The notes beneath the pieces were generated by a model that was not told where the DNA came from, ran no database searches, and saw nothing but the letters and a program-made list of their open reading frames with translations. A stretch of 64,000 bases of DNA from an uncultured beta proteobacterium (GTDB taxonomy: Bacteria; Pseudomonadota; Gammaproteobacteria; Burkholderiales; Burkholderiaceae), in NCBI GenBank assembly GCA_903935355.1, contig CAIZRK010000016.1, positions 1-64,000 on the forward strand. The letters run 5' to 3'. The position numbers were made by a program, and so were the translations under genes. This document shows positions 883 to 33,604 of this stretch, piece after piece. How positions within the stretch are numbered: position 1 is the stretch's first letter; each line of letters starts with the position of its first letter.

Positions 883-912
883 GAAATGGCCCATTTATTT
901 TTGGGCCATTTC
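883..912. terminator. 11-bp hairpin between convergent genes
   Basis: GAAATGGCCCA (883-893) pairs with TGGGCCATTTC (902-912) around an 8-base loop. The fic stop codon (895-897) lies in the loop. No clear U-run follows on either strand, so it may be a weak bidirectional terminator or an mRNA-protecting hairpin. Confidence 0.5.
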
Positions 913-2439
913 TCCCGCTAGAAATTTTGCCAAAGGCTTTATGTCCCCATCAACGCTCGCCTTTTCAAGGGCATTCATATACCGCTTACGCTCACTCACT
1001 CGTACTACAGTCCAAGGGTAGCCACCGGAGGCTAGCAAGGCATTCATCAGAAAGCGTCCAATACGACCATTACCATCAAAGTAAGGGTGTATAAATACAA
1101 ATAGATGATGACCTAACACCGCTCTGACTGATGCCTCTGGTTCATTGAACAACAGATCAAACAAAGTTTCCATGCTATCAAGGAGAGCCTCTCTAGGTAG
1201 GGGTGTGTGCAAAGAACTGCGAATAAAAACCGGGCCAGTACGGTAGCCAGCTAACTGATGGCGTTGCAAAATACCTGCCAGTACTGCAGGATTAAACATC
1301 GCGGCATACCAATCATGATGACTTTTTCTGACAACATCACCAGAATTGGCTTTAGCTAAAATTAACTTAATGCTTTCTTTTACTTCGTTAAAGGCCAAAA
1401 AGTAGCCACGAGCGGCTAGAGCATCTTTACTCTTTTTATCCGCTTCACTGATCTCAGGATTCCAGCCCTCTTTGGCAATGCGCTCAATCAATTCATCTGT
1501 AACTTGATAGCCTTCAATCGAGAGAGAGTTATAAGCATCGGCTACATAGCGCTCCTGAATTTGCTTCAGATAGGCTGTTGGACTTTTCGGAAGACCGGGG
1601 GCTTTTGGAAAGTGATGAATGACATCTTCCCGCCACTTTGCCCACATTGAACGAATGCGAAGAACATAGGGAGACTTTTCTCGTGACTGGCTAATAGTGG
1701 GTTCAGGTAGTTCAAATGGATTTTTCGCCTGAATGGCGTGTCCAGCCTTACCTAGGGCCTTGATTATGCGCTCTGCATCATCTTGCCGATTGGCAAAAGT
1801 AAGAGCGCCTGCTAGGCGAGCCGCCGCTGTTGGGAGGCAATTACCCATTAATAGAGTTGCCAATAGCTCTGCTGGATCTCGTACCATTGCCAATGCAATT
1901 TCCGCCTCCATTGGGTGATTGATAAAAAACTGCGGCCCGACCATACAGAGTGCTTCCGATATAGGTAAGACTTGAACCCCGCGTATTTCCGTGCGAGTTT
2001 TTGAGACGCGCCTCTCATCTGGGTAGATAACAAGCGAGGTATCAAATGGCAGTTTGATGATGCTAGTGCCACCTTTTTTGGCAATAATGGTAATTTGCTT
2101 AGGGATGGTAGTGCTACCGGTGTGTAGGAGAAGTGATGCTTCTGCATTTAAGCAATAACGCTTACCAAAACGTTTAGCTAGATAGCCAGACATAAAAGCC
2201 CAATAATTGGCATACCAAGCGGTAGAGTCACCATCGTGATCACTGGGATTGGAGCAAATGTACCAACCTTTCATGACTAGACGTATGAACCCAGTCTCTA
2301 AAAGCAAGGCGCGCTGAGCATCAATTAAGTCCTTTGACTCAACCACACCATAATGTTTATCTTGCAGCTTTTTTAGCGCCTTTAAAGCCTCAGAAAGCTT
2401 CTTAGAATCAGTGGATTTTTTAATAGACTTAGTTGCCAT
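895..2439 (-). CDS. Fic-domain protein with AbiEi-like N-terminal region
   Basis: The C-terminal half is a Fic domain. The active-site motif HPYFDGNGRIGR is at residues 451-462 and carries the catalytic His, the acidic residue and the GNGR nucleotide loop. Most Fic proteins transfer AMP from ATP to Ser, Thr or Tyr of a target. SLSIEG at 305-310 matches the inhibitory motif (S/T)xxxE(G/N) of autoinhibited class II enzymes, upstream of the Fic core. Residues 15-245 resemble the winged-helix and C-terminal parts of AbiEi-type (type IV) antitoxins; this assignment rests on recall of sequence style and is less sure. No separate toxin or antitoxin partner flanks it. Upstream lies a tandem repeat shared with purA. 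Confidence 0.85.
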   Translation of the reverse strand: MATKSIKKSTDSKKLSEALKALKKLQDKHYGVVESKDLIDAQRALLLETGFIRLVMKGWYICSNPSDHDGDSTAWYANYWAFMSGYLAKRFGKRYCLNAEASLLLHTGSTTIPKQITIIAKKGGTSIIKLPFDTSLVIYPDERRVSKTRTEIRGVQVLPISEALCMVGPQFFINHPMEAEIALAMVRDPAELLATLLMGNCLPTAAARLAGALTFANRQDDAERIIKALGKAGHAIQAKNPFELPEPTISQSREKSPYVLRIRSMWAKWREDVIHHFPKAPGLPKSPTAYLKQIQERYVADAYNSLSIEGYQVTDELIERIAKEGWNPEISEADKKSKDALAARGYFLAFNEVKESIKLILAKANSGDVVRKSHHDWYAAMFNPAVLAGILQRHQLAGYRTGPVFIRSSLHTPLPREALLDSMETLFDLLFNEPEASVRAVLGHHLFVFIHPYFDGNGRIGRFLMNALLASGGYPWTVVRVSERKRYMNALEKASVDGDIKPLAKFLAGEMAQK

Positions 2440-2482
2440 ATATTGTTTTAAAGTATTGATTTAAATAGGTTTAATTTAATAA

Positions 2483-2519
2483 TTTACTTTGTTTTTATTT
2501 ATAAATTAACTTTGTTATT
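2483..2519 (-). repeat. 37-bp upstream element of fic, shared with purA
   Basis: Read on the minus strand, the element has two copies of AACAAAGT 23 bp apart (about two helical turns), about 44 bases before the fic ATG. 32 of its 37 bases match the element at 32171-32207 upstream of purA, with the same spacing and orientation. It could be an operator bound by the winged-helix part of the Fic protein or by another regulator. The function is inferred. Confidence 0.6.
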
Positions 2520-2696
2520 ATCCCATGATAACTATGAAATGTATGTAGTCCAATAAAGGGCCTAGGCAGTCTATGGGCATTAATAGAATCAAGGTCACCC
2601 CACAGGATGAGGAATACATCCACTGAGGGTGGAATTCATTTACCGCTGGATACCCCTTCATGCCTATGAACTGAGTAATCCACATGCCAATCAAGG

Positions 2697-31004: not shown

Positions 31005-32168
31005 ATGAATCGTTGGTTACTTCCTGAAGATATTGCTGATGTATTGCCAGCTCAGGCTCGTACAGTAGAGTCTTTGCGTCGCGCTATCTTGGATTTGTAT
31101 CAATCTTACGGATACGAATTGGTGGTCCCCCCGATTTTAGAGTTCTTAGATTCTTTGTTAACAGGTACTGGGTCAGATCTCAATTTACAAACATTCAAAT
31201 TAGTCGATCAATTATCGGGACGCACTCTAGGTCTGCGGGCAGACATGACCCCTCAAGTTGCCCGGATCGATGCGCACCTGTTAAATCGTCAAGGCATTAC
31301 CCGTCTTTGTTATGCCGGTTCAATTGCCCATGCTCGCACCCCCGTTGGCAGTGCTGCGAGGGAGGAGTTGCAATTAGGTGCAGAGATTTATGGTTGTGCT
31401 ACCTGGGAAGCAGACTTTGAGGCGATTTCTTTACTCTTAAAAACACTGAGTTTAGCAAGCTTAAATCAGGTGCATTTGGATCTTTCACATGCTGGCGTCT
31501 TAGCCGGTATTTTGGCTGGTCAAGAAATTAGCAAACCTGAAATAGAAACGCTTTATGGATTATTGCAAAGCAAGGATCGTCCACGCTTATCTGCTTGGGC
31601 TCAATGTTTGCCGGCTCCATCGGCTGCTGCACTGATCGCTTTGACTGAGTTGAATGGCCCTTGCGCAGAAGTTTTAAAAAATGCAAAAAAGAGATTACCA
31701 CAACATCAGATGATTGATGATGCCCTAGCACAATTAGATAAGTTAGTTGGCGCTGCATCGACTTTATCGACGGGATTAGAGCTCAGTATCGATTTAGCAG
31801 ATTTGCGTGGCTACCAATACCACAGCGGTGTTATGTTTGCAGCTTATGTCGATAAATTACCTCAGCCCATTGCACGGGGAGGCCGCTATGACTATGTTGG
31901 CCAAGCATTTGGTCGGCCACGTCCTGCCACTGGCTTTTCTTTAGATTTACTCACCTTGGCGCATTTAGCGCCTTTGTGCGCGCGTAAGCCTGCAATCATT
32001 GCGCCTTGGCTAAATGATGCCGCTCTACTTAAAGCTATTGCTGAGCTACGCAGTTCTGGTGAGGTAGTTATTCAGGTAATGCCAGGCGACATTTTAGAAG
32101 CAGATCAATATCAATGTGATCGTGAGTTGGTCAAGCAGGGTGCTACTTGGGAAGTGAAGCAAACTTAA
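31005..32168 (+). CDS. hisZ: ATP phosphoribosyltransferase regulatory subunit
   Basis: HisZ is a catalytically inactive HisRS paralogue required by short-form HisG in histidine synthesis. It has a class-II core (MNRWLLPEDIADVLP start, LRADMTPQVARIDAHLL motif 2 region, ARGGRYDYVGQAFGRPRPATGFSLDL near the end) but no anticodon-binding domain, and is 387 aa long. Its place after hflC and before purA is typical of Burkholderiales. Confidence 0.93.
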   Translation: MNRWLLPEDIADVLPAQARTVESLRRAILDLYQSYGYELVVPPILEFLDSLLTGTGSDLNLQTFKLVDQLSGRTLGLRADMTPQVARIDAHLLNRQGITRLCYAGSIAHARTPVGSAAREELQLGAEIYGCATWEADFEAISLLLKTLSLASLNQVHLDLSHAGVLAGILAGQEISKPEIETLYGLLQSKDRPRLSAWAQCLPAPSAAALIALTELNGPCAEVLKNAKKRLPQHQMIDDALAQLDKLVGAASTLSTGLELSIDLADLRGYQYHSGVMFAAYVDKLPQPIARGGRYDYVGQAFGRPRPATGFSLDLLTLAHLAPLCARKPAIIAPWLNDAALLKAIAELRSSGEVVIQVMPGDILEADQYQCDRELVKQGATWEVKQT

Positions 32169-32170
32169 GC

Positions 32171-33604
<1,434 letters not shown>

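Follow-up and report, generated by a model that had tools for sequence, protein, structure and literature searches.

A 23-bp direct-repeat array before a gene for an AbiEi-like Fic protein, probably its own operator, and a look-alike before purA in one genome

AbiEi and Rv2827c are autorepressors of their own operons, and their sites are 23-bp inverted repeats located in the promoter (PMC7319586). CccR from Yersinia pseudotuberculosis combines a Fic domain and a DNA-binding domain in one protein, which represses its own promoter and AMPylates a cell protein; its helix-turn-helix (HTH) domain is C-terminal, and its operator is one inverted-repeat pair with N26 between (PMC9755527). The AbiEi-Fic protein described here resembles AbiEi and Rv2827c in the predicted fold of its residues 1-243, and its repeat unit of 23-24 bp corresponds to their 23-bp site length. 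However, the repeats of AbiEi and Rv2827c are inverted pairs, whereas those of AbiEi-Fic are direct repeats arranged in arrays, and AbiEi is a separate antitoxin found beside a nucleotidyltransferase toxin, while the AbiEi-like domain in our case is fused to a Fic enzyme. CccR provides a tested precedent for autorepression by a Fic protein, but differs from AbiEi-Fic in its C-terminal DNA-binding domain and in having no repeat array. The SoFic-type Fic proteins, which are PADLOC defence candidates, have a Fic domain in common with AbiEi-Fic, giving moderately strong HMM matches, but their accessory domains differ. We found no description of either the array or the AbiEi-Fic fusion in the open-access literature.

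The window (the whole stretch of DNA that was analysed, 64,000 nucleotides in length) carries the fic gene and its repeats on the minus strand, with the following features.

895..2439, minus strand: fic, encoding the 514-aa AbiEi-Fic protein, with an SxxxEG inhibitory helix (S305-E309-G310) and the HPYFDGNGRIGR active-site motif
1711..2439, minus strand: part of fic for residues 1-243, the AbiEi-like domain (predicted fold)
916..1557, minus strand: part of fic for the Fic domain, about residues 295-508 (PF02661)
2474..2496, minus strand: repeat unit 2 of the fic array (AAAAACAAAGTAAATTATTAAAT), its end 34 bp from the fic ATG
2497..2519, minus strand: repeat unit 1 of the fic array (AATAACAAAGTTAATTTATAAAT), with orthologous arrays in genomes G021, G185, G005, G020, G149 and G150
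2483-2519, minus strand: the fic-side element AATAACAAAGTTAATTTATAAATAAAAACAAAGTAAA (AATAACAAAGTT...AAAAACAAAGTAAA), before fic
2525..2552, minus strand: candidate sigma-70-like promoter directly upstream of unit 1, TGGACT-N16-TATCAT, a consensus match only

The repeat unit is 23 bp long, so that the 37-bp element amounts to about one and a half units; relatives have 3-4 units. The putative promoter may alternatively be read as TTGGAC-N17-TATCAT, starting at 2553 on the fic strand; of the fic leaders compared, those of G021, G020 and G185 retain this TTGGAC. A bacterial small SRP RNA (RF00169) is located at 2696-2793 on the minus strand, between fic and the gene at 2827, which by sequence encodes DNA polymerase III subunit gamma/tau.

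The Fic family PF02661 was found in all 44 aligned members, and an HxFx(D/E)GNGRxxR-type motif, with Y, F, L or M allowed at the third position, in 43 of them. The single member outside the standard active-site pattern is L143, from the Acidobacteriales. Upstream of the Fic core, in the same chain, an inhibitory helix reads SLSIEG in 43 of the 44 members and fits SxxxE(G/N) in every one; judged by motif, the protein is a class II (auto-inhibited) Fic protein. Residues 1-243 matched no family in Pfam, NCBIfam, PADLOC or PHROGs, and gave no AbiEi family match by sequence. A model of this domain, built from the 44 aligned relatives, had a pLDDT of 90.5, and Foldseek comparison with the PDB gave AbiEi of Streptococcus agalactiae as the best match (6y8q, E 1.2e-5), with Rv2827c also matched (1zel, E 3.9e-4), although the TM-scores of these fold matches were low (0.30-0.45) and could reflect subdomains in a different orientation. 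The domain is predicted to fold like the AbiEi antitoxin-repressor, its modelled layout consisting of a winged helix at about residues 32-62 followed by an alpha/beta part. A sequence profile against the PDB suggested a doubtful YfbR stretch (E 0.006), to which we preferred the fold match over the full length.

Fic leaders in the genus contained 2-4 units at 23-bp steps, with cores that are lineage-specific and largely common within one array: two copies of AACAAAGT in the window, three of AACAAAGTA in G021, four of AACAWAGTA in G005, four of ACAAGTA or close variants in G149 and G150, and two of AACCAAGTA before the broken fic of G020. In this last genome (locus L030) the fic match is limited to residues 1-96, with one TAG inside, and the two AACCAAGTA repeats persist upstream at 23 bp. 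A scan of GTDB genomes with the 514-aa Fic protein yielded 552 relatives, and we applied an array test, based on per-locus shuffles preserving only local base composition, to the best 80 of the 552; these are top-scoring relatives that are not phylogenetically independent. In 65 of these best 80 homologues, the 200 bp upstream of the gene contained a significant tandem array. The best period was 23 bp in 28 loci and 24 bp in 37, and a second run of the test gave 23 bp in 28 loci, 24 bp in 36, and another period in one. Control windows gave scattered periods and few arrays (6/67 at about -800, 1/62 at about -1800, 3/80 inside fic and 3/79 downstream of fic). Fifteen of the 80 loci fail the test, and some of these have just two units or a misplaced start. 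Among 398 proteobacterial genomes drawn separately, the N-terminal domain was present in 13, including the window's own, always within a frame of 509-552 codons; eight leaders could be parsed, one of them from the window, and six of the seven others had a significant array, one with a misplaced start codon.

The array was also present in all five plasmid homologues examined (from Alpha-, Beta- and Gammaproteobacteria and Bacteroidota). Relatives of AbiEi-Fic occur on 78 plasmids (an example is NZ_CP081909.1 of Phocaeicola vulgatus, L273) from Rhizobium, Bacteroides, Agrobacterium and others; 41 of the 78 were typed as conjugative, and no relatives were found among 50,697 phage records. Cores of the type CAAAGT or CATAGT occur in the beta group and Chlorobi; AACCTA, AAACTA and AAGCTA in gamma, Acidobacteria and others; and ACGAG or ACGAAATTT in a Chlamydiia bin, the Phocaeicola plasmid and an alphaproteobacterial bin. 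When 46 fic-bearing genomes were searched for AACAWAGT-N15/16-AACAWAGT, all 33 matches were located at a fic start, except for one at a fic remnant in L126, and the reversed pattern used as control had a single match. The AATAAVCTA type gave eight matches, seven of them at fic, against none in its control. In L126, from an uncultured Chlorobiaceae, a second array lies directly downstream of fic (about 1985-2130) and is followed by a decayed second fic start and N-terminus; read from the sequence, the array at this locus appears to have outlived its gene.

Apart from ORFs overlapping fic, no family of neighboring ORFs was common to more than about five of the 80 loci. With no conserved neighbor, and with the array restricted to fic, the Fic protein is the sole conserved trans-acting candidate. 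The earlier note had proposed the winged-helix part of the Fic protein as the binding partner of the element, and this proposal gains from the array following the Fic family across phyla and being private to fic, from the unconserved neighbors and from the predicted AbiEi fold. Divergence of the array was correlated with divergence of the protein (Mantel r 0.43-0.50, p 0.001). However, in partial Mantel tests the array was no more tied to the winged helix than to the Fic domain (partial r ~0), and the co-divergence may therefore be plain shared ancestry. A partner comparable to the AbiEii nucleotidyltransferase toxin was looked for among the ORFs neighboring the 80 loci, and no such conserved ORF was found; the Fic domain instead shares the chain. 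The best reading is that AbiEi-Fic acts in the manner of an AbiEi-type autorepressor using 23-bp units and, because its repeats are direct and it has no partner toxin gene, is a member of the class II Fic proteins and not an AbiE system.

We consider it probable that the fic element is an operator array of 23-bp direct repeats in a short form with two units, which would be bound by the protein of a one-gene, self-repressing AbiEi-Fic family. The AT-rich half-sites would also suit a host regulator or nucleoid protein, bound to the array in place of the Fic protein. We regard this as improbable, since the array accompanies fic across phyla and onto plasmids, its half-sites vary between hosts, and it is missing elsewhere in the same genomes. 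Still more improbable is a role for the array as RNA in the leader of the fic mRNA, or as repeats serving a mobile element in replication or recombination, even though it often extends near the start codon and some of the homologues are plasmid-borne. The predicted folds of five leaders, including that of purA, were no more stable than those of shuffled sequences, except for a weak z of -1.7 in one of them, which speaks against structured RNA, and we found neither a conserved replication or recombination gene nearby nor a phage match. Plasmid iterons are tandem direct repeats of about two helical turns that are bound by winged-helix proteins, but the fic array differs from them in fronting a Fic gene, without a replication gene.

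Under the preferred reading of self-repression, each repeat would be bound by the winged helix of one AbiEi-like N-terminal domain, presumably with one monomer per repeat, and several molecules arranged head to tail across the promoter-proximal leader would block transcription, acting by repression rather than activation. Once enough intact protein has accumulated, the gene would shut itself down by negative autoregulation, and the class II Fic domain would remain auto-inhibited meanwhile. Binding to DNA may also be coupled to AMPylation. If bound, the copy before purA would bring purA under the control of AbiEi-Fic, which the main model does not require. The features of that second locus are as follows.

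31005-32168: hisZ, which precedes purA
32171-32207, plus strand: the purA-side element AATAACAAAGTTCATTTTTAGTGAAAAACAAAGTAAA, a look-alike of unit 1 together with 14 bp of unit 2, between hisZ and purA
32264..33604, plus strand: purA, adenylosuccinate synthetase, named from its translated sequence

The earlier note had described the fic element and its recurrence before purA, and the positions and orientations of both were borne out: the elements share 32 of 37 bases, with runs of 12 and 14, and the purA element ends 56 bases from the ATG at 32264, in the same orientation to its gene as at fic. The pair had been judged unlikely to arise by chance. Within the window, no unrelated segment matched the fic 37-mer at more than 24/37, and six Markov-3 simulations, whose combined length was about one genome on both strands, reached at most 25/37. 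A search of 185 other genomes of the genus with the pattern of 32 shared bases, allowing up to 3 mismatches, matched only the leaders of the fic orthologues in G021 and G185. The likeness between fic and purA thus exceeds what base composition gives. In pattern searches of the window's whole genome (1.8 Mb in 44 contigs), AACAAAGT-N15-AACAAAGT occurred as exactly two exact pairs, at fic and purA, with none at 1 mismatch and two at 2 mismatches. The earlier note had named a lack of conservation in relatives that keep both genes as refuting its small regulon, and on this count the relatives spoke against purA as a shared member. The purA-side element was absent before purA in all nine genomes having purA and either fic or a fic remnant (G005, G185, G021, G020, G149, G150, G015, Pandoraea terrae G188 and G231), and exact AACAAAGT occurred in none of the 62 other purA leaders compared in the genus. 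A conserved regulon of fic and purA, as a common feature of these bacteria, is therefore not supported, and the look-alike was found only in the window's genome.

The hisZ-purA gap (32169-32263 in the window; L054-L083 and L202-L241 in relatives) varies from 21 to 103 nt across the genus and is fast-changing and A-rich, with A-rich words that include AAACAAGTAAG and AACAAAGC. Its last ~40 nt before purA are often alike between species (TTTTGTAATTAT-CTTTT-GGATT), and may represent a conserved purA leader. Immediately after both elements there is a likeness of the form AACCTA...TTTAAA, which might have pointed to a copied fic leader; this reading was rejected because relatives have an alignable stretch in their own purA leaders.

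Two readings of the purA copy were weighed; both are limited to that copy and are no rivals of the main AbiEi-Fic model. The copy could be a second operator that is functional and that this lineage acquired recently, making purA, and with it AMP synthesis, a target of AbiEi-Fic; we give this add-on slightly less than an even chance. Against the next match of 24 and the simulation maximum of 25, 32 of 37 is an extreme outlier, nothing like it occurs outside fic leaders in the 185 genus genomes, and the copy faces its gene as the array faces fic. In addition, all five differences between the elements fall outside the two family-defined 12-bp cores, an outcome with a probability of 0.003 had the drift of a copied sequence been even. 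However, every examined relative with purA and fic (or its remnant) lacks the purA element, no array lies away from fic in the 46 other fic-bearing genomes, and a promoter-like site looked for on the purA strand at the look-alike was not found. The alternative, to which we assign an even chance, is that the look-alike arose by coincidence, or is a short copy that has drifted and has no function. The variable gap with its A-rich words and the lack of conservation of the copy are consistent with this, and by our own estimate the comparison of all segments with all others in an AT-rich window offers many chances for such a match. Yet an exact 16-base pair would be expected only about 0.001-0.005 times per genome (our estimate from the mismatch counts), and the 37-bp match is rarer still. 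So close a match is hard to obtain from composition, and the cores are spared, but the pair was noticed among many possible comparisons, and we place a second operator and a coincidental or inert copy at near balance.

A further conjecture, which we regard as unlikely, is that these genes form an undescribed and widespread one-gene system resembling toxin-antitoxin modules, in which a fusion of an AbiEi-type repressor to a class II Fic enzyme would assemble head to tail on direct repeats of 23-24 bp, so that occupancy would both silence the gene and hold or sense the state of the Fic domain; in this genome the protein would also have captured purA, tying AMP synthesis to an AMP-transferring enzyme. 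Until now, autoregulation by Fic proteins has been known from the single-palindrome case of CccR, and the operators of AbiEi have been inverted repeats. The family of Fic proteins with an AbiEi-like domain and a cognate direct-repeat array spans Betaproteobacteria, Acidobacteria, Chlorobi and Bacteroides plasmids, and may offer hundreds of natural pairs of protein and putative operator with diverging half-sites. These diverging half-sites would allow the DNA preferences of the AbiEi fold to be read by comparison, and would make the control of AMPylation by an operator directly testable.
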